A DNA stretch of 27,671 nucleotides, taken from positions 1 to 27,671 of the IMG/VR virus record IMGVR_UViG_3300045996_000338. The stretch is one strand, 5' to 3'. Positions 2 through 19,337 of this stretch are shown piece by piece (positions within the stretch are counted from its first letter, which is position 1; the number at the start of each line of letters is the position of its first letter). The position numbers were made by a program, and so were the translations under genes. Source of the stretch: a virus. Under the pieces are notes generated by a model. That model was not told where the DNA came from. It did not search any database and was given only the letters and a program-made list of their open reading frames with translations.

Positions 2-2800
2 TTACCTACTACATTAGTGGGTGGGACTGTATCGGGTTTCAGAGATAGTGGTGGCCGAATTAGAGGGGTTGGGGATGCTACTACAAGAGACGTTCTATTT
101 GGTACTACTCGTGGAGCATTAGGGGCAGGATTAAATAGGTTCCAACAACTCGGGCCAGTGAAAGGAATAGGGGCTATAGGTGCGGTAGTTGGTGGATTAG
201 CCCTATTAGATAAAGCAGCTACGTCTACAGATGCGACAACGAAACAAACAATAGCTTCTGTACTTCAACTAGGTGGAGCTATAGGTTTAGCTATACCCGG
301 ATTCCAAGCGTTCGGAGCAGCAGCTATTGGTGCGGGTACATTGCTCTCATTATTCGGTAACGAAGCAGCGGAAGCAGAGAAAGATGTTAAGGCTTCAGCC
401 GTAGCTATCTATGACACCCTGCAAACACTAAATAGATCACAGGCAGATGTTGAAACGTTTACTAAGGCTCAAAGAGACGCTTCTAGAGATATAGATCGTA
501 TAATAAAAACAGGTAAGACGGATGAGCAGGCTAAAATTGCTCAAACTGATGCTACAAATAGATTCGTAACTGCTACACTATCATTGGCTAGTGCGAACAA
601 GGCTGTTTCTGACTCTTTCGATGATCTTTTACTTAAGCTAGATAGTATTGGCGGTAGCTACGCTGAATATAAAAACATCATTGGCAATGCTGCGAGAGGA
701 CCAAATAACGCTGTAGTCCAAAGATTATCCGCAGAAATTGCTACAGAGATTCTTCGCGCAACAGGTACACCGCTCTATCTTCCAGAGGGTCAGCGAAGAC
801 CTATACCTACGGGGGAATTTAAGGTTCCTCCTTTAGAGCTATCTGTTAACGCTGAGAAAATTTTATCTCAGCATATATTTGACGAGGGGGGCCAGTATGG
901 ACAAGTTAGAACGCTAACTCCCGAAAATATTGGTAAACTTATTGATGTGGATACGGGTAAGTTTAACTTTGATGTTCTTCCTTCCCAAGAAAACTTATTA
1001 AAGCTGTCATCCGTTATACAACAGCTAGCTACTGATCCACTAGATTTTAACCAGACTCAGATTGATACCCTACAACGAACCGTTCAAGATTTCTTAGTAG
1101 CTAACTCAACCTTTTATGCTATACAAACTACACTATTGACGGATCAGGCTCGTATCCAAGCATTAGGATCGATTGGTGCCCTGAGAGGGGAAGATTTGAA
1201 AAATGCTACTCTTCGAAATCAACTAGGAATACAGCTACAAAGCCTATTAGGTAATGCAGATGCTCCTAGAACACCCCAAGACCGAGCCGCTTTAGGTCCA
1301 CAAGCTACCTATGACGTTCGGGTAGGCATTGATCAGGAACAAGTACGTGATTTAATTAAGGAAATTACAGAAACAGCCGATGGTGAGATAAACATAAAGG
1401 CTTTTGATGGTGATGAATTAGAGAAGGTAGGAGAAACCCTTCTTAGACTAAAGGAAATATTCCCAGAGATAAGCGCGCAAGGGGAGCAAGCTTTGCAGAG
1501 GGGAATTATTGAAATGCTTCTAGAGGGTGGAGTTGAAGCTCAAACTTTAGAGGAAGAATTAGGGCATATACCGGGTGTATTGGAAGCTATATCTGACGAA
1601 GCAGCAGAAGCAGCAGAAGAGCTTAAAAAGGCGTTCCAAGGAGCAAGGGACGAAGCATTAAATTCTTTGGCTCAACGAAATGCTGCACTTCAAGCGGGTG
1701 AAAATAGTGGTCAATATGAAGACAACGCTGCTGGATTAGCAGCACTAAAGGATCAAAGCCAGCAAGCGTATGATTCTCAAATAGCATTGATTAATGCTAT
1801 TGAGGGATTAAATTCTAAGGCTCTACCTGAACTACAGGCTCAATTAGCTAATGTTGTTGGTATGGAAAACGCTACTATTCTTTCAAGTGATCAGCTATCA
1901 GCAGCGTTTATTAACAATGCATTAGATGCCGGGGTTAGTGCTGAGGGTATCGTAAAACTACAAGGAAAACTATTAACTCTTATCGATGTTATGGATCGAA
2001 TTTCTAAACTTAGAGTTAAGTTTACAATTAAGGGTGAAGTTTTCACAGATGTATCGCAGCATATTGCGGCTTTGAAAATCTATCAAAAAGCTACAGCAGC
2101 GGCTCTTAAGAATAATCCTTTCATTGGCCCTACAACCGGAGGCGTTACATCATCCGCTTTTAAAGAATTAAATGAGGCGATTGCTGAGTTAGAGGGTCTA
2201 AGTGGAGAGCTAGATAATCTTACTGGTGGGATAAATAAGACAATAGGCTCTGGTACTGGCTCTAGCTTTGGGCAGTTACCTAAAAGTGGTAGCGGCAGCA
2301 GTGCTGCTTCAAAGGCTAGTGGGCCAGATGTATCAACACTTGATCTTCCAGAAGAGATTGCTAACGCTATGAACAGAGCAGCACTTATTCAGGAAGCTAT
2401 TAAGAGAGCGAAAGAGCTACAGGCAAAGATTCCGGGTGCAAGTAAGGAAGCACAGAATGACATTGTTGAGTTGCTACATGGTACTCAGCACATTCTAGAG
2501 GTTAGAGGCGTTAAGGATGACTTGCTACGAAAGGCTCTTGAAGAGCTAGCCGAAATCGAAAGAAAGAGACTAGAGTTTGAAACAAAAGCTGACACGATCC
2601 GACGAATTAGAGTTGGTGCAGGAAGCTTTGCAGCTATTGCTAACGTTCCAGTAAACACTAAGACAGGAGTTTCATTAGGTGGCGCAGAAGGTCCAATCAA
2701 TATTTCATTGAACCTTAACGGTACTGTACTAACTCCTGCACAGTTAGCACAATTCGCTGATCTTGTGGCATCAGCACTAAAGAGACAGCTAGCTAGCTAA
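2..2800 (+). CDS. Tape measure protein, C-terminal part (5' end outside window)
   Basis: The reading frame is open from the first bases, so the gene begins upstream; the GTG at 17 is probably internal. The visible part is 932 residues. The tape measure runs through the tail tube, sets tail length and is ejected with the DNA. Evidence: great length, Ala/Gly-rich hydrophobic stretches near the visible N-terminus (around residues 50-115, membrane-helix-like), long Ala/Glu/Lys/Leu-rich probable coiled coils (about 520-620 and 780-870), and a Ser/Gly-rich linker near 755-780. The C-terminal tail has the NLNGTVLTPAQLAQFADLV pattern often seen at the end of siphovirus tape measures. It sits directly before a Dit-like gene, the canonical order. 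The stop codon overlaps the AAGGAGGT ribosome-binding site of the next gene. I see no peptidase domain in the visible part. Confidence 0.85.
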   Translation, partial: LPTTLVGGTVSGFRDSGGRIRGVGDATTRDVLFGTTRGALGAGLNRFQQLGPVKGIGAIGAVVGGLALLDKAATSTDATTKQTIASVLQLGGAIGLAIPGFQAFGAAAIGAGTLLSLFGNEAAEAEKDVKASAVAIYDTLQTLNRSQADVETFTKAQRDASRDIDRIIKTGKTDEQAKIAQTDATNRFVTATLSLASANKAVSDSFDDLLLKLDSIGGSYAEYKNIIGNAARGPNNAVVQRLSAEIATEILRATGTPLYLPEGQRRPIPTGEFKVPPLELSVNAEKILSQHIFDEGGQYGQVRTLTPENIGKLIDVDTGKFNFDVLPSQENLLKLSSVIQQLATDPLDFNQTQIDTLQRTVQDFLVANSTFYAIQTTLLTDQARIQALGSIGALRGEDLKNATLRNQLGIQLQSLLGNADAPRTPQDRAALGPQATYDVRVGIDQEQVRDLIKEITETADGEINIKAFDGDELEKVGETLLRLKEIFPEISAQGEQALQRGIIEMLLEGGVEAQTLEEELGHIPGVLEAISDEAAEAAEELKKAFQGARDEALNSLAQRNAALQAGENSGQYEDNAAGLAALKDQSQQAYDSQIALINAIEGLNSKALPELQAQLANVVGMENATILSSDQLSAAFINNALDAGVSAEGIVKLQGKLLTLIDVMDRISKLRVKFTIKGEVFTDVSQHIAALKIYQKATAAALKNNPFIGPTTGGVTSSAFKELNEAIAELEGLSGELDNLTGGINKTIGSGTGSSFGQLPKSGSGSSAASKASGPDVSTLDLPEEIANAMNRAALIQEAIKRAKELQAKIPGASKEAQNDIVELLHGTQHILEVRGVKDDLLRKALEELAEIERKRLEFETKADTIRRIRVGAGSFAAIANVPVNTKTGVSLGGAEGPINISLNLNGTVLTPAQLAQFADLVASALKRQLAS

Positions 2801-2810
2801 GGAGGTAACG

Positions 2811-3563
2811 ATGCCACTAGGTCCAGCACAACAATATTTAGCAAATTATAACTCATTCACCTTACCGGGTTATGTCCAGCAGGAAGAGCTAGAAAATACA
2901 TCTAATATCGCTGGTCATAATGCTCCTTATGCTGACGGATCAGAGTCAGAGTATACAGGGCTACAGAATAAGTTGCTAGCTCTCACACTAAAGGTGTGGG
3001 AGCCTGATTATTTGTCCTGTAAAAATGAAGTACAAAAGGCCGCAACAATAGTTAGAAGTAAGAAAGATAGCTTCGCACCTTTGTATGTCCATTATTCAGA
3101 TAGATACTATGAAGCCATGACTCGGGATATCAAAGTAAGCAAGACCGCAGGAACGTCTGTAAGGACGCTAGATTACACAGTTAACTTTGAGTGCCGCCCT
3201 TGGCTTACAAGCGTGTCTGGACACACTCTGACGGGCACAGGGACGATTGACACAGACTCCGTTGGCCGGACTATCGATAATGGTGGCTGGACACCGACAA
3301 TTATCACGGTGACAGGCACAAATGTAACGATTTCTGGTTACACAGCTACGGGAGATTTCGCAGGATATATCAGCATATCTGGTGCTGTCTCAGGGTTAGT
3401 AATTAACTCTGAGGATTATTCTGCGGAAATCGGGGGCATAAATAAAAATAATGTAATGCTATGGACAGACTACAGAATGTATGTGGGTCCGGGTAAGACG
3501 TATTTCACTAGTACAGGGGCATCTTCTGTATCTATATTCTATAGAGATAGGTGGTATTTGTAA
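2811..3563 (+). CDS. Distal tail (Dit-like) protein, first copy
   Basis: 250 residues, ATG start 4 nt after a perfect AAGGAGGT site. Dit proteins form the ring at the tail tip that joins the tube to the Tal hub and adhesins. The call rests on position right after the tape measure, on length, and on architecture: an N-terminal half with Y-N-S/G-Y-x-L-P-G-F/Y, a W-E-P-D/N-Y motif and a V-N/D-F-E-C-R/K-P-W strand typical of tail-ring beta barrels. A C-terminal beta-sandwich follows (T-G-T-N-V-T-I-S-G-Y, Y-V-G-P-G) and ends in Y-R-D-R-W-Y-L. A clear paralogue forms the last ~245 residues of the protein encoded at 6964-11301, also ending Y-R-D-R-W-Y-L. The stop codon overlaps the next start (TAATG). 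The family call is from context and pattern; no search was run. Confidence 0.7.
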   Translation: MPLGPAQQYLANYNSFTLPGYVQQEELENTSNIAGHNAPYADGSESEYTGLQNKLLALTLKVWEPDYLSCKNEVQKAATIVRSKKDSFAPLYVHYSDRYYEAMTRDIKVSKTAGTSVRTLDYTVNFECRPWLTSVSGHTLTGTGTIDTDSVGRTIDNGGWTPTIITVTGTNVTISGYTATGDFAGYISISGAVSGLVINSEDYSAEIGGINKNNVMLWTDYRMYVGPGKTYFTSTGASSVSIFYRDRWYL

Positions 3564-5020
3564 TGGTAGAGCAGTACGAGAATAACTACTCAACACAACT
3601 TAATGGAGCTATCGATTCAGACGATACAACCATCGTAGTTGATGCTGCCCCTGTTACTATGACAGGTAGCTTTAGGATTAAGATCGACAATGAGTTAATT
3701 CTCGTAGGTTCTGTATCAGGTACATCATTTACAGGCTGCACAAGGGGTGTAGAAGGTACTACAGCGGCCTCTCATAGCGATAACGCTATCGTTAAGCATG
3801 TATTAACTGCGGATGCTTTAGAAAATATTATTTCTGAAACTGTCTCAGGTATACCAGTTACAACCCTTGGTTATAACACAGTAGGGGCTTCTACTCTTAG
3901 CCCCGGTGCAGATAATAGGGGACAAGCAAAGAAAGTAACTATTACACAGGCTGGTACCATATTAGGTGTATCTGGATATTTTAAAATGGTAGGAGGTCCG
4001 GGTACGGGAGCGTTATGGGGAGCCGTATATACAGATAATGCGGGAGTACCGCATAAACCTATGGGCGGGGCTTATACCCAATATAGACAGGTCATTTTAG
4101 ATGCTAATGAAGATTTAGGGTGGTTCCATATACCTGTAAATGTTCATGTTGATTCGGCTACTGATGTGTGGATTGTAGTTGGTAATGCATATCAAGCAGG
4201 GTTTTTACGTTTAACATATGACGCTAGTGGTACTGACTATGAAATAACTTTCAGTCAATTGCCTTGGCTAGCGGAAGTTGGTATGAGTGGAGGGTATGCT
4301 ACAGCTTCCTCAACTACTCGTAAGCACTCAATTCGTGCGCATTTTCTACCCGATGGAGTCGCACCTTCCCCAACTGATCCTATTGATATAGTGTTTGGTA
4401 CACCAGATACAGCATATGAATTTGATACTACTAGCCTAACAGGTTTAACAAGCCTATCCACTACACCAGATGTAATGAATGCAAATACTACAGTACCACA
4501 TCATCTATATATTAATGACAATGCGGGTACAGGTGGAGCAACACAGCTTGTAGGACTTTATGCATCAAAAAGCCCCCCATTTACAGCCATTTGTAAAGTA
4601 GGCGACGCAACTACCTATACCGATTATAACTGGTTTGGTATGTTTTGTGGTGTAGCAACACCGGGCAAAATGTTAGCTGCGGGAGTTGCTTATGATAGTG
4701 GTGTAGCACTTAGGACCGTTAGAATTAATAGCCCTACGGATGGATCAGGAACAGTCGGTAATGCCGTAAGAAATGCTCCCTTTTTAATTGATGTTAATAA
4801 TTCCTATTTCTGTGTACGGGCTGCTTCTAGTACAGACGTTAGCATATATTGGAGTAGAAGTGGGTATATCTGGTATCCAATTGTTCTCAATGATAATAAT
4901 ACGATGACAGTGGGTTCAGTAGGTCTGTATATTCTTTCAAATAATACAACAGCGCCCGGTATGAGTGCTGCATTTGATTATTTAAGAATTTGGGATTCAA
5001 CCCTAACTATAGTAACTTAA
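3563..5020 (+). CDS. Tail adhesin with shared N-terminal beta domain and lectin-like C-terminus
   Basis: 485 residues from the ATG at 3563, which overlaps the previous stop (TAATG); an in-frame GTG at 3551 lies inside the previous gene and is less likely. Residues 1-90 are a small beta domain (A-I-D-x-D-D-T-T, I-D-N-E-L-I-L-V-G, T-R-G-V-E-G-T-x-A-A-S-H) that recurs at the start of the next two genes. By hand count about 60 of 86 residues are identical to the copy at 6076. This domain type is common as a mounting unit in phage tail proteins. A middle domain (about 105-260) is followed by a concanavalin-like beta domain (about 275-485) with Y-W-S-R-S-G-Y-x-W-Y-P. Likely a host-surface-binding tail-tip protein; the ligand is unknown. 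Confidence 0.6.
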   Translation: MVEQYENNYSTQLNGAIDSDDTTIVVDAAPVTMTGSFRIKIDNELILVGSVSGTSFTGCTRGVEGTTAASHSDNAIVKHVLTADALENIISETVSGIPVTTLGYNTVGASTLSPGADNRGQAKKVTITQAGTILGVSGYFKMVGGPGTGALWGAVYTDNAGVPHKPMGGAYTQYRQVILDANEDLGWFHIPVNVHVDSATDVWIVVGNAYQAGFLRLTYDASGTDYEITFSQLPWLAEVGMSGGYATASSTTRKHSIRAHFLPDGVAPSPTDPIDIVFGTPDTAYEFDTTSLTGLTSLSTTPDVMNANTTVPHHLYINDNAGTGGATQLVGLYASKSPPFTAICKVGDATTYTDYNWFGMFCGVATPGKMLAAGVAYDSGVALRTVRINSPTDGSGTVGNAVRNAPFLIDVNNSYFCVRAASSTDVSIYWSRSGYIWYPIVLNDNNTMTVGSVGLYILSNNTTAPGMSAAFDYLRIWDSTLTIVT

Positions 5021-5035
5021 ACTAAGGGGAATAAA

Positions 5036-6058
5036 ATGGTAGAGGTATTTTCAAATGATTATCATACGACTCTAAGTGCAGGAATAGATGATGATGATAC
5101 TACATTAATTGTAGCGTCAGTTACAGGTCGTCCCACAGGGGGAGAATTTCGTATCATCATTGATCCTGAAACTGCGTCCGCAGAAATATGTACTGTAACA
5201 AGTGTATCGACTAATACCTTTACAGTAACTAGAGCTAGTGAAGCTGTCGCTGGCGTTCAAACTGCCTTTGCTCATAACTCTGGTGCCGTAGTTTCTCATG
5301 TAATAACTGCGGGAAGTTTATCACGAGCAAATCCAAGTTTATTATACTCTGTTAAAACCAGTGTAGATACCCCTGATGATGAGTTTAATTCAACAACTAT
5401 TGATGCTAAGTGGACAGTTGTATCAGGTACGGCAGGAACAGCAAGTCTATTCGGTAATGCTGGTGGGGCTACAAATGCGGTTTATGATCTATCTACTAGG
5501 CCCGGTTGGATGCTTATGCAAACAGGTACTACAACGGGTAACACTGTTCAATTAAGACAAGATTATACTATACCTGATGGCAGTAGCATAGTAGTAGCTT
5601 TAGCTATTGCTTCTCCGTCACAAGATGCAAGTCCCGGCCCCGGTTGGGCAGATAATGAATTACAAGTTGGTATTACTCTAAATACAGATGATACAGGGGC
5701 CACTGCGGGAGCAGCAGGAATTGATTTTTATGCCATGGAAGTAGATGCAAACTCTACTGATGTTCAAGTTGTAGGCAGAGGTATGACTTCTGGGGGCACT
5801 AGTATATCTACGATTTGGCGTCCTATTGGTACTATGATTTATTTACGTATAGCTAGAACAGGTTTAGTTTATTACCCTTATTTTTCTATGGATGGATTTA
5901 CATGGGCACCGATGGATGATGTTACTTTTGCATCAGCACTTACAAATATTTGGATATTCCATAGAAACGTAGCTACACAGGGAACACCTACAGGAGTTAC
6001 AGCATGGGCTTGGGTAAGATTAGGCAGTAATAATATCGATCCTTGGATATGGGCTTAA
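5036..6058 (+). CDS. Tail adhesin, second paralogue, concanavalin-like head
   Basis: 340 residues, ATG preceded by AAGGGGA. Residues 1-95 are the second and most divergent copy of the shared base domain (D-D-D-D-T-T-L, F-R-I-I-I-D, V-T-R-A-S-E, A-H-N-S-G-A-V-V-S-H-V-I-T-A-G). The rest (about 110-340) begins D-D-E-F-N-S-T-T-I-D-A-K-W and contains S-M-D-G-F-T-W-A-P. Both are hallmarks of the concanavalin-like lectin/glucanase jelly roll seen in many phage and bacterial surface proteins. No catalytic glutamate pair is obvious, so binding is more likely than hydrolysis. It lies 15 nt after the preceding paralogue, which suggests co-expression as interchangeable receptor-binding units. Confidence 0.6.
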   Translation: MVEVFSNDYHTTLSAGIDDDDTTLIVASVTGRPTGGEFRIIIDPETASAEICTVTSVSTNTFTVTRASEAVAGVQTAFAHNSGAVVSHVITAGSLSRANPSLLYSVKTSVDTPDDEFNSTTIDAKWTVVSGTAGTASLFGNAGGATNAVYDLSTRPGWMLMQTGTTTGNTVQLRQDYTIPDGSSIVVALAIASPSQDASPGPGWADNELQVGITLNTDDTGATAGAAGIDFYAMEVDANSTDVQVVGRGMTSGGTSISTIWRPIGTMIYLRIARTGLVYYPYFSMDGFTWAPMDDVTFASALTNIWIFHRNVATQGTPTGVTAWAWVRLGSNNIDPWIWA

Positions 6059-6075
6059 GTTAATTAGGAGAAATT

Positions 6076-6912
6076 ATGGCGGATCAATTTGAGAATAACT
6101 ACATAACACAACTTAATGGGGCCATCGATGCTGATGACACTACGCTAACTGTAGATGCTGCGCCATCAAGTATGACAGGTACTTTTCGTGTTCTTATTGA
6201 TAATGAATTAATACTTGTGGGAGCAGTCTCAGGGTTAACTCTTACGGGTTGTACAAGAGGTATAGAGGGTACTGTCGCCGCTAGTCATAACGATAACTCC
6301 ATAGTAACTCACTTACTTACAGCAGGAAGCATACAAACATTAGGAGGAAATACATACCCTGAAATTTATCAGGTAAAATTTGGGGGAACACAGATTTCTT
6401 CTCTAACACTAGATACTGCCCCGCCTAATGGAAGTAGTATTTTAATGTATTGTGATGCATACAATACGGCACATGTAACAGCGATAAGCTCTACTAATAC
6501 TACATGGACTAAACTGACTGATGTATCTGCGGGCGCTTATTATTCTCTATGGATAGGATTAGTATCTGGGGGCGCAGGAGGAACAGCAATTACGTTTACT
6601 CATGTTAACTCTTATCTGTCTGTCTTTGCTATAAACATAGCAGATACATTAACTGGAACACTTGGTACATCAGTATTCGGTGCGCAGAGTACAACTATAA
6701 CAACTCCTGCCGCACCAGCAGAAGGTAATTTAGTAGCTGTTTTTGGTGGCTTAGACAATACAACTTTAACAAACGATATTAGTGTATTAATACCAACATT
6801 AGGTTTTCCTACAGGAACAGTTTCAGGGGTGGTAGGATACTCACTTGGTAATAAAGTAACTGCTCAGTTTACTCCTAACGCGGGGAGATTAGTTATAGCG
6901 GAAATAACATAA
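6076..6912 (+). CDS. Tail adhesin, third paralogue, different beta head
   Basis: 278 residues, ATG after TTAGGAGAAATT. Residues 1-90 are nearly the same as the first paralogue, including I-D-N-E-L-I-L-V-G and T-G-C-T-R-G. The C-terminal ~185 residues are unlike the other two heads. They form an Ala/Thr/Ser-rich beta domain (S-S-T-N-T-T-W-T-K-L, Y-S-L-W-I-G, I-T-F-T-H-V) resembling small beta-sandwich domains common in tail-associated proteins of environmental phages. Same base with a different head argues for recombination at a module boundary near residue 90. The receptor is unknown. Confidence 0.55.
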   Translation: MADQFENNYITQLNGAIDADDTTLTVDAAPSSMTGTFRVLIDNELILVGAVSGLTLTGCTRGIEGTVAASHNDNSIVTHLLTAGSIQTLGGNTYPEIYQVKFGGTQISSLTLDTAPPNGSSILMYCDAYNTAHVTAISSTNTTWTKLTDVSAGAYYSLWIGLVSGGAGGTAITFTHVNSYLSVFAINIADTLTGTLGTSVFGAQSTTITTPAAPAEGNLVAVFGGLDNTTLTNDISVLIPTLGFPTGTVSGVVGYSLGNKVTAQFTPNAGRLVIAEIT

Positions 6913-6963: not shown

Positions 6964-9900
6964 ATGTTAGGGAATGATCAACTAGGGGATTTTATACTCG
7001 GGGGTGCCGAAGAAGATCAGCCTAGCATTACCTATGGTACAGGACAAGGCCAAGCTACTATTTTTGCAAGTAGTTATTCATTTGGTCAAGCCCAAGCATT
7101 AATACTTGTACTAGGTGTAAATAAGCACGCACAGGCCCAAGGGTTTATTCTTGATCTTAGTCTAACAAGTGTTTTAGGTATATCTGATTCTGTATTAGGG
7201 CGTAGTCTATTAGTAGGACTTGGTTCAGAGTTAGCTCCTATACCCTCTATGGTGGGGCAAGCACAAGCAAGCATTCTCACAGATGATTATCGCTATGTAA
7301 CATTAAATCAAACTCCTTTTGCTTACTTCCCTCTAAATGAACTAAGTGGGACTAACTACGATAATATCATGGGTACCGGAGACGGTACATCAGATGGCGA
7401 TACTATTACTCAGGGTGTTACACACGCCCTAGATAACTCTACAAATAATACTGCTATTACATTTGCTAATAGTGGCTTCTGGTCACGAATTGTAGCCCCG
7501 CTCACAGGTGTTCCGGTAAGTGCGGGTGGAGTAGTAACTGTTACAGGCTGGATTAAATTATCTTCTAGTAACAGTCAGATGTTTTTTGGTTGGAATGTTT
7601 ATGATCTGCATTTCAATGGTACAAATCTAGGATTTAATACTGGTAATAGTGATAACTACGGTTTTAATGCTACTGCCCTAGTTGGCAAATGGGTACATAT
7701 TGCCGCAGTATTTTATCACAACCAAAATTATACAATAGCTAATAAAATCTATATTAATGGTGTTGCACAAACACTGTCAGGTAGCTCTAACACCGGTTTA
7801 TTAACTACTACATTCCATCTTTCAGGTTGGGGAACAAATACAGGGGAATGGGCTAGAGGAACCTCTATGGATGAGGTTGCTCTATTTAATAGAGAATTAA
7901 CATCTACAGAAATTGCAGCACAATACAATGCAGGACAACCTAAAGCCTATGGACAAGCACAGGCAGTAATTGGTGAAGTAATACCTAGCATTTCTACATC
8001 TAAACCGGGTATTGCTCGTTTGGGTATTGCTAGATTAGGTACTGATCATGTTGAAGGGGAAGAGGATACTTCTAAGTATGCTCATGGACAAGCCCAAGCT
8101 AGAATACTTCAAACGTACTATACACATGGACAAAGCCAAGCAGATATCCTACAAACATATCAAGCTTACGGTCAATCACAGGCTAGAATAGGTAATGTTT
8201 ATTCCGTTCATGGACAGAGCCAAGCATTAATTCTTGCTCCCGCTAATGCGCACGGACAAGCGCAAGGTACGATCCTAGCCGTAAGTAATGGCTTGGGTCA
8301 ATCACAGGCTGATATCTTACAAACCTATCAATCTTATGGACAGGCTAATGCAACCATAGCATTAAGACAATACGTTCATGGTCAGAGTCAGGCTTGGATT
8401 AAATCAGTAGTTTATGGGCTTGCTCAGGCTCAGGCACTTATCTTTACGTCAACATGGAAAGTCGCGCAAGCACAAGCCCTATTAATTAATCCTATCTCTT
8501 GGCAATATGGTCAAGCACAGGCTATGGTCTATACAATTTATCTGTATGACTCATTTAGCCGAACAACATCATTAGGTGATCTAGGCTCACCTAATATTGG
8601 TCCTGATTACGAATACGAATCACCACTATTAAAGGTAAACGGCTCTAAATTAGAATTAGAGTCTGACGGAGACGCTGCTAATGTAGATATAGCAAGGGGT
8701 ATGTTTAAAGACCCCTATATTATCCAATTTGAATTTACTTCAAATGACTTTGATTTTTTCTACTTAGAAGTTTCAGACTCACGTTATTTCTACCTATATG
8801 AAAATAATAATAATCCATATATAAGCATCGAAGATGATGATAGTACTACTATATCTTTAGTTAATGATGAAACATACGTATTCAAGGCTTCGCATATTGG
8901 CGGCGTAATGCGTATGAAGGTATGGAATATCCTATCTGTTGAACCAGATTGGATGATTACTCTTTCAGGTTATCCAGATAATAGTAATAGTATTTTCCTA
9001 TATATAGACCCTGATACCGTATCAACTGTTTTAATTGATAACCTTCTTATTCTTACAAGTGGGGAAGGCCAACACCTTAAACAATCTTATGGTCAAGCTA
9101 GAGCATTTGTTAAGGCAAATAGACAAAAATTTGCTCAGGCACAGGCAGATATTCTAAAGAGCGACGGATACGGTCAAGCTAAAGCACAGATCATTCACTT
9201 TGATGCTAATAGAATGGGCCAAGCCCAAGCTATGATTAATCTAAAATTAGCAATAGGACAAGCTAAAGCATATGTTCAGCCTATATTTAGAAGAGTCGCA
9301 CAAGCGCGAGCAAGAATTAAAATACTAGGACAACAAGGATATGGACAAGCAAATGCCTTGATTATGCCTAGATTTAACCAGTTTGCCCAAGCGCAAGCAC
9401 GAATGTTAGGGTTCGATCAAGTAGTACATGGACAAGCCACAGGATTAGTTGACTCAGCTATTAAGGTCAACTCAGGTAATGCACACGCTGTAATTAGTAA
9501 ACGTATTCTTTTTGATACCTTCACCAGAACAACTACAAACGTAATTGGAACACCTGATCTTGGTAGTTATCAATCTTCTGATATAGCTAGTGGAGACGTA
9601 GATGGGTCACAATTAGTAGTTGTATTCCCAACTACATATGACGATGCATGGGCAGATGCAAGAGTACATGCAAGAAATATAATTACTTCTATCGAATTTA
9701 CTAGAAGTGCTACGCATGAAGATAACTACATGGAAATTTACGGGCGTGGAGCCAACGGTGGTGTGGCTATTTGGATATCAAATAACGAAGTTTATATTAA
9801 TAGACAAACCGCTGTTAATAATTCAAGTAGTTCACAAAAGATAGCAGACCTGACTATACTAGCTGGTGTTACATACGTAATGAAGCTGGTAATCGTTGAA

Positions 9901-11301
9901 GATCAAGTATTGGCAAAAATTTGGGATAAATCAACTCTTGAACCTGATTGGATGGGAAGCCTTACTATACAATACAATGATCGTATTGGTAGGGCAGGAT
10001 TTTATTTCGATAACTATGATGGTATTGATGGTATGGTAAGTACTGTCTATATTGATAATTATAGTATTGAAACTACAGATTACTATCAAAGAGCCTACGC
10101 GCAAACAAGAGCAAGAATCAAGTCTGTAGGACTACAGAAGTATGGTCAGGCTCAGGCAGAAATATCCCCGCCACTACCGGGAATTAAATCTGGTCAGGCA
10201 CAGGCTTTCATTAGCAAACTTGCTGGATATGGACAGGCATTAGCTACGATCTATGCAGCCTCTAGACGTTGGGGACAAGCCCAAGCATATATTAAGGAAT
10301 TTGAATTTAAATATGGACAAGCGAGGGCCTACATTCGGAAGGGAGATAACACTACTTACGGTCAAGCGCAAGCATACATTAGACCTAACGCTTATACAGG
10401 AAATGCACAGGGTTATATCTCAACTAAGCCAATAAAGACGGGACAAGCCCAAGCGTTGATTGCGCGAGGTCAGAAGCATGGACAAGCTAAAGCATACATC
10501 GTAGGTATAACAGGTACGCCGCCTCCGGGTACAACCCCACCACCAACAGGTCCGGGTAATGTAGTTAGAACATATATTGTTGATTACAATGGCTATCAGC
10601 TACCGGGATTTGCAACAGATGAATCTATGGAAAGTATTATGGAGATAGATGCTCATTCTGCGGCATATTATCAGATACCTTTCGTAGAGCATATGGGGCT
10701 TAGAAATAAGCTTGTCTCTATGACTATGGCTGTATGGGAACCTAACTACTACGTTGTGAAGAATAAAGTGCAGGAAGCTGCAACCATTATTCGATCTAAT
10801 AGAAGTGGTTATGCTCCACTATATATTCAACGAGTAGATCGTCACTATGAAGCTCTTGCTAAGAAGATATCCATGAGTGCTGTAGCAGGAGAGAGTGAGA
10901 GACTTGTTAAGTATCAAATTGACTTTGAATGTAAGCCATGGACTGTGAGCGACACAGAACATACATTGACAGGTACAACTACACTTGATACGGATGCTGT
11001 TCTCCGAGATTTGTATAGTGGTGGATGGACACCGACTAGAGTGGAAGTTACAGGTACAAATGTAACTATATCGGGTTATACAGACTTCGGAGAATTTGCA
11101 GGGTATATTAGTATTTCAGGAGCAGTATCAGGTTTGACAATAGACTCAGAAAATAATATAGTCGTAATGAATGGGGAAACTAGAAACGATGTTCTTTATA
11201 CACCGGATTACAGCCTGTACGTTGGGCCGGGAAGAACACGGTTCGATGTAACAGGAGCATCTAGTGTAACGATAACGTATAGAGATAGATGGTATCTCTA
11301 A
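6964..11301 (+). CDS. Giant repetitive tail adhesin: GQAQA repeats, lectin-like domains and a C-terminal Dit-like domain
   Basis: 1445 residues, ATG 4 nt after GGGGTGA. In order: repeat block A (about residues 25-106), LamG-like jelly roll (about 108-325; A-Y-F-P-L-N-E, W-V-H-I-A-A-V, I-Y-I-N-G, M-D-E-V-A-L-F-N-R-E-L), block B (329-522), jelly roll 1 (527-697; K-V-W-x6-E-P-D-W-M), block C (709-845), jelly roll 2 (849-1039; K-I-W-x6-E-P-D-W-M), block D (1045-1179), a Pro/Gly/Thr linker (1183-1199) and a Dit-like domain (1201-1445) paralogous to the protein at 2811-3563. The blocks hold about 36 copies of [YHF]-[GA]-Q-[AS]-[QRK]-A-x-[IV] every 12-19 residues. Likely role: an elongated virion adhesin attached to the tail tip through its Dit end. 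The repeat fold is unknown; its alternating pattern suggests beta structure. The gene is followed 10 nt later by the Tal-like gene. Confidence 0.65.
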   Translation: MLGNDQLGDFILGGAEEDQPSITYGTGQGQATIFASSYSFGQAQALILVLGVNKHAQAQGFILDLSLTSVLGISDSVLGRSLLVGLGSELAPIPSMVGQAQASILTDDYRYVTLNQTPFAYFPLNELSGTNYDNIMGTGDGTSDGDTITQGVTHALDNSTNNTAITFANSGFWSRIVAPLTGVPVSAGGVVTVTGWIKLSSSNSQMFFGWNVYDLHFNGTNLGFNTGNSDNYGFNATALVGKWVHIAAVFYHNQNYTIANKIYINGVAQTLSGSSNTGLLTTTFHLSGWGTNTGEWARGTSMDEVALFNRELTSTEIAAQYNAGQPKAYGQAQAVIGEVIPSISTSKPGIARLGIARLGTDHVEGEEDTSKYAHGQAQARILQTYYTHGQSQADILQTYQAYGQSQARIGNVYSVHGQSQALILAPANAHGQAQGTILAVSNGLGQSQADILQTYQSYGQANATIALRQYVHGQSQAWIKSVVYGLAQAQALIFTSTWKVAQAQALLINPISWQYGQAQAMVYTIYLYDSFSRTTSLGDLGSPNIGPDYEYESPLLKVNGSKLELESDGDAANVDIARGMFKDPYIIQFEFTSNDFDFFYLEVSDSRYFYLYENNNNPYISIEDDDSTTISLVNDETYVFKASHIGGVMRMKVWNILSVEPDWMITLSGYPDNSNSIFLYIDPDTVSTVLIDNLLILTSGEGQHLKQSYGQARAFVKANRQKFAQAQADILKSDGYGQAKAQIIHFDANRMGQAQAMINLKLAIGQAKAYVQPIFRRVAQARARIKILGQQGYGQANALIMPRFNQFAQAQARMLGFDQVVHGQATGLVDSAIKVNSGNAHAVISKRILFDTFTRTTTNVIGTPDLGSYQSSDIASGDVDGSQLVVVFPTTYDDAWADARVHARNIITSIEFTRSATHEDNYMEIYGRGANGGVAIWISNNEVYINRQTAVNNSSSSQKIADLTILAGVTYVMKLVIVEDQVLAKIWDKSTLEPDWMGSLTIQYNDRIGRAGFYFDNYDGIDGMVSTVYIDNYSIETTDYYQRAYAQTRARIKSVGLQKYGQAQAEISPPLPGIKSGQAQAFISKLAGYGQALATIYAASRRWGQAQAYIKEFEFKYGQARAYIRKGDNTTYGQAQAYIRPNAYTGNAQGYISTKPIKTGQAQALIARGQKHGQAKAYIVGITGTPPPGTTPPPTGPGNVVRTYIVDYNGYQLPGFATDESMESIMEIDAHSAAYYQIPFVEHMGLRNKLVSMTMAVWEPNYYVVKNKVQEAATIIRSNRSGYAPLYIQRVDRHYEALAKKISMSAVAGESERLVKYQIDFECKPWTVSDTEHTLTGTTTLDTDAVLRDLYSGGWTPTRVEVTGTNVTISGYTDFGEFAGYISISGAVSGLTIDSENNIVVMNGETRNDVLYTPDYSLYVGPGRTRFDVTGASSVTITYRDRWYL
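7036..7281 (+). repeat. GQAQA repeat block A (about 4 units)
   Basis: Four coding units, G-Q-G-Q-A-T-I, F-G-Q-A-Q-A-L-I, H-A-Q-A-Q-G-F-I and V-G-Q-A-Q-A-S-I, irregularly spaced. It is the shortest and most degenerate block, at the N-terminus of the giant adhesin. Confidence 0.75.
7948..8530 (+). repeat. GQAQA repeat block B (about 12 units)
   Basis: Twelve coding units, many of the form H/Y-G-Q-S-Q-A-x-I. Two two-unit segments (around 8122-8190 and 8296-8355) encode the near-identical G-Q-S-Q-A-D-I-L-Q-T-Y-Q stretch with different synonymous codons, so the repetition is stronger in protein than in DNA. Confidence 0.85.
9088..9498 (+). repeat. GQAQA repeat block C (about 10 units)
   Basis: Ten coding units such as Y-G-Q-A-R-A-F-V, F-A-Q-A-Q-A-D-I and I-G-Q-A-K-A-Y-V. 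The fifth position varies among Q, R, K, N, T and H, and the last two units are degenerate. The block lies between the two E-P-D-W-M jelly rolls. Confidence 0.85.
10096..10500 (+). repeat. GQAQA repeat block D (about 10 units)
   Basis: Ten coding units ending H-G-Q-A-K-A-Y-I. Tyrosine before the last hydrophobic residue (A-Y-I) is favoured in this block. A Pro-rich linker separates it from the C-terminal Dit-like domain. Confidence 0.85.
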
Positions 11302-11311
11302 GGGAGATTAA

Positions 11312-14300
11312 ATGCTGCAAGTAAAGATCACAGAGTTTGATGGCAGTGATGCTATCATCTTAGAGAGAGCTAAATCCTTAACAGTATTCGAAGCTGTTAA
11401 CTCATCTGATGAAGGGGTATCCTTTAATATTGCCAAGAATGATCCCAAGGCATACATAGTTAATCCTGATCAGGAGGGCTATAAAAAGTTTTGGGAGGTA
11501 TGGGATACAGTCACTAATGAGAGGGTTAACTATGGTCCTATTACGTCTATCACTGAACAAGGGACTGACTTTCGGGTAGAGGGTGCGGGTCGATCCGCCC
11601 TTCTACTCGATTTTTATAAGACTACAAAAACTTTCTACACTCCGATTGATTCTATCATAGATGACATTAGGTATGAAAACCTAGCTGTTCAGCCGCGTAC
11701 TACAACATTGGTCCATAAGGCAGATGATACAGCAGCACAGGATACAATCTTTGGCGCTACTGATATTAATGAGAAGTACGCTGGACTTAGCTTACAAACT
11801 AAAGATAACGTTATTGATGATAACTCTGGTCTGGTAAGACCGGGCGAAATCGAGCCACCAAATACTTATCATTCTACTGATTCTTTCTGGGCAGGACAGG
11901 GTAAGGTCGATAGTCACATCATAGATTTAGGCGACGTATATAGCGTCTCTAAATTATTATTGATACTTCCTTCATGGGGTGGATCAGAGAGAAAAGGTAA
12001 CAGAACCTATGACTTTGAATTAGCCTATGCAACGGATACTGAGGCTACTTTAACGTCCTTTAACGGAAGAGAGATAGGCCCATTTCATGCGTTATATGAT
12101 ACTGGCGCAGAGAGCCATTTACTCATGGGTAATAGACCCGGTGGTTCTTTCTACATAGGTGCGGGTAACATGAATGTAGGATTAGATGATCCTACTTTCT
12201 ATGTGGCTACTGAAGTACCGGGAACATCCTTAGATATGAGATACATTCGTACCAGAATTTATGACGTACATGCTTGGTACGGTAGCGTATTGGATCAGAG
12301 TCCTGCGGTAGATAAATGGCGCTTCCAGTGCGATCCTACATATGAACCGGGAGACGAGGTTACAACTCCTGCGGATGCTCCGGGTGTCATGGAAGGTAAG
12401 GTAATTAACGAGAGGGAGTTAGAGCCAGCTAACGATTGTTTCGCCTCTATCATTGAGCTAGGTGTTTATAAAGAAATACTAGGGCGTGGAGACTTAAAGC
12501 CTTTAGCCCTACAGAGAATTGATAATAATAACCTACAAATTATCTATTCTCACCAGCCAGAGGCATCGGAAACGGTTACTACACCACAAGGATTCCGTAA
12601 GTTTGAGCCGGGGGGATTCTTTAGAGCAGTTAGTGTGAATTATTCGGGTGCAAGCTCAACTTACTCTAAATTTTATGATGATGATTGTGCAGATTGTTAT
12701 CCAGATAACTTTAACTTTGGTGTAATGGATCAAAACAATAGTCTTATCTTGTCTAGGGATCAAAGCTCGGGTACAGGAGTAACAGTTAAGTCTGGAGCAT
12801 ACACAAGTTATATTCTAATGAAGGGCGCATCTAATGCTGTAGTTACTCACGCTGATTCTTGGCCCGCTGTTACTGACCCTCTTTCTTGGGGAGGTTCCTA
12901 TAGCTATACAAAGATAGTAGGGGATTACGCTATCCTTCATTTTAGGGGCCAATCTCTTAGATGGTATGCCACGCTACCCGATGGGGAAACACCAGCAGAG
13001 GTTAGCATAGAGATTAGAAACAAGGATACTAATGGAGAATGGACAGGTTGGACTACATTAGAAAGTAGTTTCACTCTCCCTACAGGATCATATAATGCTG
13101 AGCCTGTGTATGAAATCAGCTATGAGTCAGGTGCCCTACAGCCTGAAACCGTATATCAGATTAAGATAACTAATCTAGATGGTAACTATCTAGCAATCGA
13201 TTCATTCGAAGGTTATTGGTCTAGCTCTATGACTAGCTACAATGAGGACAACTCCCGAATTGGTGTTAGTGCTCCTGAAAGACTCTCACAAATCTATGAT
13301 AGAAGATTTAGTGGTGGGTCGATGTATAAGTGGAATAATAATACATTCTTTAACTTCGTGTTTGAAGGAGATAGAATTGTATTATACTCAGCTAAGGGTA
13401 GAAACCATGGTAAGATTAGAATTATCCTAAGAAAGAGTGGACAAGGTTCTTACTTCTATGATGATTATCCTACCGATACTACAGTATTAATTCCGGGGGG
13501 AAACCCTACCGATGGAAGCCTCTCTATCGATCTAGAGACAGGGAAGCGGGGGGCAGAAATTCCACAGTTTGTAGCTTTCGATTCTAATGATTATTTTCCT
13601 GACGGTTTGCCATGGAGTAAGTATCTATTTGGTATCTATTTGCTACCGAGTGAAATTGATACCTATACAACAACTGACGTAGCAGCTTCAAACAATTTCA
13701 TTGAACGTTGCTCAGATTGTGAAGCACCAATAGGTGAGCCAGTTACTATAGCAAAGCATGTGTATTTCGATGGACTAGCTACGCATGAAAAGGTTGGGCT
13801 ATCAATTTCATTTGAGAATGAAGCTCATTTAGACATACTAAAAGCAGTAGCAGAAGCTACTCAAACTGAGTGGGATATAAATGAGGCGGGAGTTAATCTT
13901 GTCCCTCGTCTTGGTGAGGATACAAATGAGGTTCTACGAGAGGGACAAAATACGATGGTAGATTGGCAGATAGTTAATGATGTTAATAAGGTAGCTACAC
14001 AGCTAGTATCTAGTGGTGCCGATATCGATGGCTTGCCTCTATTTACTATTACAGAGGATAAGAAAACGCGCGCAGATGTAGGCCGAACCATTATGAGAAA
14101 GGAAGACTTCAGAAATATTGCTGACTACTTCCAACTTATCGGCCTATCACGAGTAGCATTAAGGAAGAGACGAAGACCTGAAAAACGGATCACCGTAACT
14201 CATATTACGAAACGATTTGCATTAAATAAGGGAGACTCATTTATACTCTATACTAATAAGATGGGGCCACTCAGAGTAAGGATCATGAAAAAAGAGAGAA

Positions 14301-14365
14301 GTCAGGCTGCCCAAAGTGGCTTTGAGTATAGATTGGAGTGTATACAATGGCCTCAGATAACTTAA
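11312..14365 (+). CDS. Tal-like tail hub protein with inserted carbohydrate-binding-type domains
   Basis: 1017 residues, ATG after AAGGGAGATTAA. The N-terminal ~115 and C-terminal ~220 residues resemble the hub (gp27/ReqiPepy6 gp37-like) domains of siphovirus tail-associated proteins: a Y-N-P/F-x-I-x-L-like opening, V-x-G-x-G-R-S-A-L-L, and a C-terminal N-K-V-A-T-Q, S-R-V-A-L-R-K-R-R-R-P and N-K-G-D-S-F pattern. Between them lie an F5/8-discoidin-like domain (about 187-327; H-I-I-D-L-G-D-V-Y, Y-I-R-T-R-I-Y-D-V) and two jelly rolls. These are at about 532-637 (I-L-H-F-R-G-Q-S-L-R-W-Y) and about 660-740 (F-V-F-E-G-D-R-I-V-L-Y-S-A-K-G-x-N-H-G-K), the second like domains in glycan-active enzymes. 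No peptidase motif is visible. The likely job is the central tip hub with glycan binding. The end overlaps the next gene by 19 nt. Confidence 0.6.
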   Translation: MLQVKITEFDGSDAIILERAKSLTVFEAVNSSDEGVSFNIAKNDPKAYIVNPDQEGYKKFWEVWDTVTNERVNYGPITSITEQGTDFRVEGAGRSALLLDFYKTTKTFYTPIDSIIDDIRYENLAVQPRTTTLVHKADDTAAQDTIFGATDINEKYAGLSLQTKDNVIDDNSGLVRPGEIEPPNTYHSTDSFWAGQGKVDSHIIDLGDVYSVSKLLLILPSWGGSERKGNRTYDFELAYATDTEATLTSFNGREIGPFHALYDTGAESHLLMGNRPGGSFYIGAGNMNVGLDDPTFYVATEVPGTSLDMRYIRTRIYDVHAWYGSVLDQSPAVDKWRFQCDPTYEPGDEVTTPADAPGVMEGKVINERELEPANDCFASIIELGVYKEILGRGDLKPLALQRIDNNNLQIIYSHQPEASETVTTPQGFRKFEPGGFFRAVSVNYSGASSTYSKFYDDDCADCYPDNFNFGVMDQNNSLILSRDQSSGTGVTVKSGAYTSYILMKGASNAVVTHADSWPAVTDPLSWGGSYSYTKIVGDYAILHFRGQSLRWYATLPDGETPAEVSIEIRNKDTNGEWTGWTTLESSFTLPTGSYNAEPVYEISYESGALQPETVYQIKITNLDGNYLAIDSFEGYWSSSMTSYNEDNSRIGVSAPERLSQIYDRRFSGGSMYKWNNNTFFNFVFEGDRIVLYSAKGRNHGKIRIILRKSGQGSYFYDDYPTDTTVLIPGGNPTDGSLSIDLETGKRGAEIPQFVAFDSNDYFPDGLPWSKYLFGIYLLPSEIDTYTTTDVAASNNFIERCSDCEAPIGEPVTIAKHVYFDGLATHEKVGLSISFENEAHLDILKAVAEATQTEWDINEAGVNLVPRLGEDTNEVLREGQNTMVDWQIVNDVNKVATQLVSSGADIDGLPLFTITEDKKTRADVGRTIMRKEDFRNIADYFQLIGLSRVALRKRRRPEKRITVTHITKRFALNKGDSFILYTNKMGPLRVRIMKKERSQAAQSGFEYRLECIQWPQIT

Positions 14366-18158: not shown

Positions 18159-19337
18159 ATGAAGATATTGTTTGCCGGTGATTCACCGACAGTCCACACA
18201 GGGTTCGGGATCGTATCTAAAAACATTCTGAATCGGTTGCACAAGATGGGTCATGAGATAGCTGTCTTAGGCATCAACCATTATGGAGAGCCTTACGATC
18301 AGAAAGTCTATCCATATCCAATCTATCCATGTGACAAGGGCGGGCCAGACCAAGTGTTCGCTTATGCAAAGTTTTGGGGTATTTATGAGGCTATGCAGCC
18401 TGATTTAGTATTCTTCCTAAATGATCCATGGATAATACATCGGTATATGGAATTCAAACCTGAGGAAATATACTCTCATACGAAATTTCTTGTGTACTAC
18501 CCGACAGACGCTGGACCTATTAAGAAGGTCTGGATGGATACTCTGAACAGTATGGACGCACAAGTATGTTACTCCTACTATGCCGAAGGTGTCGCCATCA
18601 AATCTAATGGAGGAAAACGACCGGATAATCTACATATGGTTTACCATGGTGTAGATTCCAAAACGTTCTATCCAATAAATCAGTCGGTCGCTCGCACGTA
18701 TCTAGGATTACCTCTGGACCAATTCATTGTGGGTATGGTTGCTCGTAACCAATTCAGAAAAAGATTTGACATACTTATGGCGGGCTTTGCCGACTTTGCG
18801 AAGGATAAGACTGACGCAAAGCTCTACCTCCATACAGCGCTGAATGATATTGGATATGACATTCTTGATCTAGCTGTGCAGCTAGACCTAGAAGATAAGT
18901 TAATATTGACTGAGGGAGTAACGCCCGCTAAAGGTGTAACTGATTCACGACTTAATTACATCTATAACTCGTTAGATGTTCATGCTCTCATAAGTCTAGG
19001 GGATGGCTTCGGCCTTCCTGTAGCTGAGAGCATGGCTACAGGCTGTCCGCAACTAGTCAGTGATCATTCTTGTTTACAGGAATTAGTTAAGGACCATGGA
19101 GGTCTTACAGCTAAGACGGCGGCATGGATATCAAATACGAGTGCGATAAATACGTGGGGAGGCATCACTGATCCACAGGACATAGCAAAGAAGCTAAACA
19201 TACTATACAAAAATAGAGAGCAAAGAATAAAGTTAGCGGAACAGGCGTATAACTTCATAACACAAGAGAAGTTTACGTGGGACTATGCCGCAAATGAATT
19301 CAATCAAATTATAAAGAAGCTATTTCATATATTGTAA
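18159..19337 (+). CDS. GT-B glycosyltransferase (GT4-like)
   Basis: 392 residues, ATG 5 nt after AAAGGAG. The N-terminal domain opens M-K-I-L-F-A-G-D-S-P-x3-T-G-F-G, the GT-B donor-independent Rossmann domain with its Gly-rich loop. The C-terminal domain has V-A-R-N-Q-F-R-K-R (basic nucleotide-sugar site) and G-D-G-F-G-L-P-V-A-E-S-M-A-x-G-C-P, a D282-x7-E290 version of the GT4 E-x7-E motif. The reaction would be transfer of a sugar from an NDP-sugar; donor and acceptor cannot be read from sequence. Between tail and lysis genes it could glycosylate virion proteins or alter host wall glycans. The length is normal for an intact single-domain GT4 enzyme, and there is no membrane segment. Confidence 0.85.
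   Translation: MKILFAGDSPTVHTGFGIVSKNILNRLHKMGHEIAVLGINHYGEPYDQKVYPYPIYPCDKGGPDQVFAYAKFWGIYEAMQPDLVFFLNDPWIIHRYMEFKPEEIYSHTKFLVYYPTDAGPIKKVWMDTLNSMDAQVCYSYYAEGVAIKSNGGKRPDNLHMVYHGVDSKTFYPINQSVARTYLGLPLDQFIVGMVARNQFRKRFDILMAGFADFAKDKTDAKLYLHTALNDIGYDILDLAVQLDLEDKLILTEGVTPAKGVTDSRLNYIYNSLDVHALISLGDGFGLPVAESMATGCPQLVSDHSCLQELVKDHGGLTAKTAAWISNTSAINTWGGITDPQDIAKKLNILYKNREQRIKLAEQAYNFITQEKFTWDYAANEFNQIIKKLFHIL

Follow-up and report, generated by a model that had tools for sequence, protein, structure and literature searches.

The distal tail protein (Dit) is usually one hub protein into which other adhesins plug. The window (the whole 27,671-nucleotide stretch of viral DNA analysed here) encodes a stand-alone Dit and, a few genes downstream, a second Dit that forms the C-terminus of a much larger protein made of short repeats and intervening domains (Table 1). 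This layout raises the question of what a Dit with such an extension does at the tail tip, and how a phage comes to carry it next to a Dit of ordinary size.

The fused Dit and its surroundings

Table 1. Features of the repeat-Dit fusion gene and its neighbours in the window
Feature	Position	Strand	Remarks
Tape-measure protein, C-terminal part (putative)	2..2800	+	directly upstream of dit; truncated by contig end
Stand-alone Dit (distal tail protein)	2811..3563	+	250 aa; 53% identical to fused Dit
Three fibre-like ORFs between the dit genes	3551-5020, 5036-6058, 6076-6912	+	PHROG matches
Repeat-Dit fusion protein	6964..11301	+	1445 aa; ORF has exactly these ends
Repeat block 1	7039..7275	+	4 units, at residues 26, 40, 55 and 97; motif scan
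Insert 1, LamG (concanavalin-like) domain	7525..7917	+	residues 188-318; PF13385, E 2.4e-10, above cut-off
Repeat block 2	7948..8529	+	12 units: residue 329, then 11 at 374-515
Insert 2, unnamed D[ST]F[ST]R module	8536..9072	+	~180 aa; recurs across several related contigs
Repeat block 3	9088..9495	+	10 units, residues 709-837
Insert 3, second D[ST]F[ST]R module	9502..10080	+	~193 aa; 26% identical to insert 2
Repeat block 4	10096..10500	+	10 units, residues 1045-1172
Pro/Gly-rich linker, GTPPPGTTPPPTGPG	10501..10560	+	read from sequence; model pLDDT <50
Second Dit, ring/belt and galectin-like C-terminal domain	10543..11298	+	homology to stand-alone Dit; Foldseek
Tal / tail hub protein (putative)	11312..14365	+	1017 aa; follows fusion; weak PHROG tail-endopeptidase match, E 0.011

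Residues 1194-1445 of the fusion protein share 53% identity with the stand-alone Dit (ORF 2811-3563), and the fused Dit aligns with it from end to end. In an AlphaFold2 model of residues 1036-1445 the Dit part is predicted mostly with pLDDT 83-96, and its best solved match in Foldseek is the Dit of phage SPP1 (gp19.1; PDB 2x8k; E 3.2e-12, probability 1.00); further solved matches are the NF5, monocin, TP901-1, 80alpha and p2 baseplate chains. The identity and the match to 2x8k confirm the C-terminal Dit-like domain proposed in a preliminary description of this DNA. Like gp19.1, the fused Dit has a ring (belt) domain followed by a galectin-like domain, and as with other Dits its gene lies between those for the tape measure and Tal; gp19.1 is 12% identical to it and lacks an N-terminal extension. 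The match to the Pfam SPP1_Dit profile (4.6e-4) scores below the family cut-off, so that the fold is the stronger evidence for the identity of the domain.

Three inserts interrupt the repeat array, all of which had been described as lectin-type. This holds for insert 1, which is a LamG domain by profile (PF13385), but inserts 2 and 3 have no recognised binding fold: LamG was not found in either by profile comparison, and their D[ST]F[ST]R module gave weak, scattered matches in Pfam, none of them significant, and no match in the PDB. LamG, PA14 and F5/8 type C domains occupy comparable positions in the relatives. One insert is thus lectin-type by profile and the other two are candidates; all three may bind sugars. 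Some array proteins have short LG-rich stretches (LGNDQLGDFILGG; QLGTTYSQLGGI) at their beginning or close to it, seen in the fusion at residues 1-17 and 60-90 and in another record (L085, 12783).

The ORF at the tape-measure position (2..2800) returned no family match; relatives carry an ORF of 1585-2147 aa at this position, before dit. All three fibre-like ORFs between the dit genes (3551-6912) match phrog_6427 through their N-termini, with tail-fibre PHROGs among their other matches, and are probably paralogous fibres. Elsewhere in the window (18159-19337) lies a gene for a glycosyltransferase up to ~33% identical to those of Synechococcus and Tetrasphaera phages.

A 14-residue repeat and its predicted fold

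A scan with the motif [GA][QN]xx[AG]x[IVLM], usually preceded by an aromatic residue or His, finds 36 units in the fusion protein, in blocks of 4, 12, 10 and 10; 2000 shuffles of its sequence yield 1.4 units on average and never more than 6. The preliminary description, which had counted about 36 units in blocks of about 4, 12, 10 and 10, was correct on this point, although the range of spacings it gave (12-19 residues) is slightly wide: units within blocks are 13-16 residues apart, mostly 14, and block 1 has one gap of 42 residues. By profile comparison, blocks 2 and 4 are one repeat (99.4%). Over the whole family, 824 distinct units yield the consensus [YFH]-[AG]-Q-A-Q-A-x-I-K-Q-T-Y-x-x, and the spacing is exactly 14 in 618 of 889 intervals (70%, among intervals of 12-17), with 15 the second commonest value.

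Third positions at synonymous sites of conserved codons agree in 43% of cases overall and 38% between neighbouring units, close to the expectation from codon usage (0.29-0.51 per residue), and no DNA-level tandem repeat matching the array was seen. Together these observations indicate an old array that selection has maintained at the protein level.

A further ~20 IMG/VR contigs contain the repeat, and a single ORF can hold as many as 70 units. The family was recovered with a DNA pattern (two units at 14-residue spacing) and an alignment-based IMG/VR scan, and was missed by whole-protein searches. The suggestion that the repeat belongs to no named domain is upheld, with no significant match over the GQAQA units in Pfam, PHROGs or NCBIfam and no description found in the literature searched. 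A profile search of the PDB gave chance or compositional matches alone, among them BurrH, which is compositional (best stretch, i-Evalue >6). The repeat was not found by tblastn in 50,697 cultured phage genomes, a result that the BLAST low-complexity filter may weaken. It is a rare unnamed family, whose 824 distinct units offer a test case for short fibre-repeat folds.

Several candidate members were rejected. Early IMG/VR pattern matches (L006-L008 and L013) are unrelated Gly/Ala- or Gln-rich proteins, L109 is likewise of this type, a repeat-profile match in G019 is a low-complexity stretch, and matches in genome contigs are due to low complexity or chance. Some array ORFs of the related phages (L019, L022, L025, L026, L027 and L016) end in 'LxLSDRxY' or 'PxADISNDGW' and not in a Dit; such ORFs often come as two adjacent genes.

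The preliminary description had proposed one beta strand per unit, and we regard this as a probable fold, despite one helix prediction that conflicts with it. In the AlphaFold2 model of block 4 with the Dit (residues 1036-1445, 21 sequences), ten strands are predicted for the ten units, each beginning at the first residue of its unit; pLDDT in the block is mostly 64-84, and the five models agree (72.5-75.5). Because the units were picked by the motif, the absence of Pro and the hydrophobic alternation at motif positions are partly built in, and the unbiased test is the one on 37 units outside the motif selection. In these, the period-2 hydrophobicity is 0.49 (shuffled mean 0.25, maximum 0.33), and there is no 100-degree (helical) hydrophobic signal.

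The conflicting prediction comes from block 2 alone (residues 373-511), modelled as a single long helix with pLDDT 78.5. An array that forms an alpha-helical, coiled-coil-like rod, with the other parts of the proposed protein unchanged, would also accord with the length of the unit, 14 residues being two heptads in one register, with residues 2, 6, 9 and 13 as possible heptad a/d positions. The five block 2 models disagree, however (49.6 to 78.5), and the pTM is 0.39. Heptads poorly tolerate the one-residue changes in spacing (to 13 or 15) that are common among the units, Pro occurs in 7 of 29 units in the window and Gly in most, and the period of the hydrophobicity is that of a strand, so that with strands in ten of ten block 4 units a helical rod appears unlikely. 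The unit is short and rich in Ala and Gln, and unit number differs widely among relatives, features that would suit an unstructured, low-complexity spacer tethering lectin-like domains to the tail. Such a spacer is improbable, given that the unit is conserved while synonymous sites are saturated and that 70% of spacings are exactly 14 residues; moreover, neither block 2 nor block 4 is predicted to be disordered, and the confident prediction of a disordered linker, named beforehand as evidence against a structured shaft, did not occur.

If each unit does form one strand, the array could be either a beta-solenoid or an intertwined trimeric shaft. A trimeric shaft would invite comparison with the triple beta-spirals of adenovirus fibre and reovirus sigma1, whose shafts consist of ~15-residue repeats of short strands and turns. 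The likeness is one of resemblance only: here the units recur every 14 residues, each predicted as a single strand (against the conflicting helix run), and the sequence pattern of the repeat is unmatched in those proteins. Foldseek returned no convincing structural match for the array.

Two Dits across a group of phages

With the stand-alone Dit as query, a match was found in 12 of 17 array-bearing records, and in nine of these 12 an array ORF of 1005-3049 aa also carries a second Dit, either terminal or internal. With L118, which has the fusion as well, and the window, the total is 11, although G009 and G015 among them look all but identical. The gene order in the window and its relatives is tape measure, dit, 0-3 ORFs, fusion and tal, and the fusion gene lies between the stand-alone dit and tal in all nine fusion relatives tested. 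Two contigs (G008 and G011) have an array ORF after dit that extends past the contig end. A single dit directly before tal, with no fusion, is found in G016, which still has arrays in other ORFs, and in L091, a 23-kb fragment in which no arrays were found. These one-Dit relatives, paired with the two-Dit ones, provide material for tracing the origin of the fusion. The fusion of a second Dit to the array, as first described, is therefore real, and the two-Dit arrangement, which has no name, is conserved across this group of uncultured phages. L091 also has an ORF with an HNH-like motif, recognised by eye, between the tape measure and dit (9231-9980).

A scan with the Dit alignment found a contig set nearly identical to that of the repeat search, indicating that this Dit family and the repeat occur in the same phages. 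As a pointer to the host, Dit relatives were also sought in samples of genomes, with no positive control: none was found in 400 genomes from the phylum of L038 (Anaerolineae) or in 380 from that of L042 (Saccharibacteria), and 399 genomes from the phylum of L050 gave one weak partial match.

Trees place the fused Dits on one side of a branch and the stand-alone Dits on the other (support 91/96), a split that three builds recovered in 88%, 90% and 98% of their bootstrap trees; support for the deeper branches is weak. Several sub-groups are mirrored in the two halves of the tree, the window with G014, and G006 with G004 and G005. Two separate Dit groups with mirrored sub-groups point to one duplication before the group spread, and on this phylogenetic evidence a single old duplication of dit is likely.

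In three fusions, L078 (G010), L079 (G015) and L080 (G009), the fused Dit is reduced to its ring/belt part and the galectin domain is absent. The fused Dit of G009 and G015 stops after the ring/belt; in G010 more repeats and other sequence come after the belt, so that the ring/belt is embedded between arrays. Known Dits build their ring from the ring/belt part (PMC7291167), and its retention in all fusions, with the galectin domain lost in three, argues for anchoring by the ring part. One fused Dit, L076 (G005), has a TAA near the end of the aligned stretch, which could be a natural stop or an assembly error.

A proposed Dit-anchored arm and its alternatives

We interpret the fusion as a tail-tip adhesin, an arm anchored by a Dit and likely to bind glycans, and assign this reading a probability of roughly 0.6. 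The fused C-terminal Dit, a paralogue of the stand-alone one, would anchor the protein in the virion at the tip of the tail, where it would probably make up a second Dit-type ring or part of the canonical one. The ~1190 residues upstream would form arms of 14-residue units, each predicted to contribute one beta strand and a turn, which would space out the carbohydrate-binding-type domains and hold them away from the tail; these domains might then make the first, multivalent contact with glycans on the host surface. A more specific version, in which a siphovirus-like lineage has two different Dit rings derived from an ancient duplication of the gene, the second bearing six arms of a new one-strand beta repeat, a new fibre fold that is also used in other large ORFs, is offered tentatively.

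The fused Dit might instead have no ring of its own and swap into the canonical hexamer, giving one mixed ring with fewer than six arms. The two Dit types occur in the same genomes and are still similar (53% in the window), as would be expected if they shared a ring, but the fused Dits sit on tip branches that are clearly longer than those of the stand-alone Dits (0.73 vs 0.22 in the window) and three fused Dits have lost the galectin domain. The longer branches and the galectin loss suggest different contacts for the fused Dits, and we consider a mixed ring doubtful. The orientation of the arm could also be the reverse, with the N-terminus of the array joined to the tail and the galectin domain binding a receptor at the distal end. 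In most known tail fibres the N-terminus is the attached end, and galectin-like folds can bind sugars; yet the domain retained in every fusion is the ring domain and the one lost in three is the galectin domain, the gene is located between dit and tal, and no N-terminal attachment domain common to the fusions was noticed, which makes this reversed orientation very improbable.

A precedent for the second Dit ring proposed here is found in phages p2 and SPP1, which have two Dit hexamers at the tail tip (PMC9863714, PMC6669499). In those phages both rings are copies of one Dit, whereas the present phage has two genes, one of them hugely extended; a separate, extended Dit paralogue is not described in the p2 and SPP1 literature examined. 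The fusion can also be compared with the evolved Dits (evoDits) of lactococcal, streptococcal and Lactobacillus siphophages, where the loops of the galectin domain hold one or two carbohydrate-binding modules (CBMs) that add adhesion to the structural role of the Dit (PMC7291167). The fusion has a LamG domain by profile, a candidate carbohydrate-binding module, and may function like an evoDit. In contrast to evoDits, however, it is a second, paralogous Dit with a ~1190-residue N-terminal extension of repeats and inserts, and we do not class it as an evoDit, since its extra domains precede the Dit in the chain and do not sit in galectin loops. If correct, a conserved second Dit with a giant repeat arm would represent a different design of host-recognition device.

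No relative of the GQAQA repeat was found in the cultured phage genomes searched, and the likeness to Dit-containing proteins of actinophages is a match of fold only: minor tail proteins of Zeta1847 (A0A2Z4Q9Y2) and Mufasa8 (A0A649VM47), of 734-735 aa, likewise contain a Dit-like fold within a larger protein.
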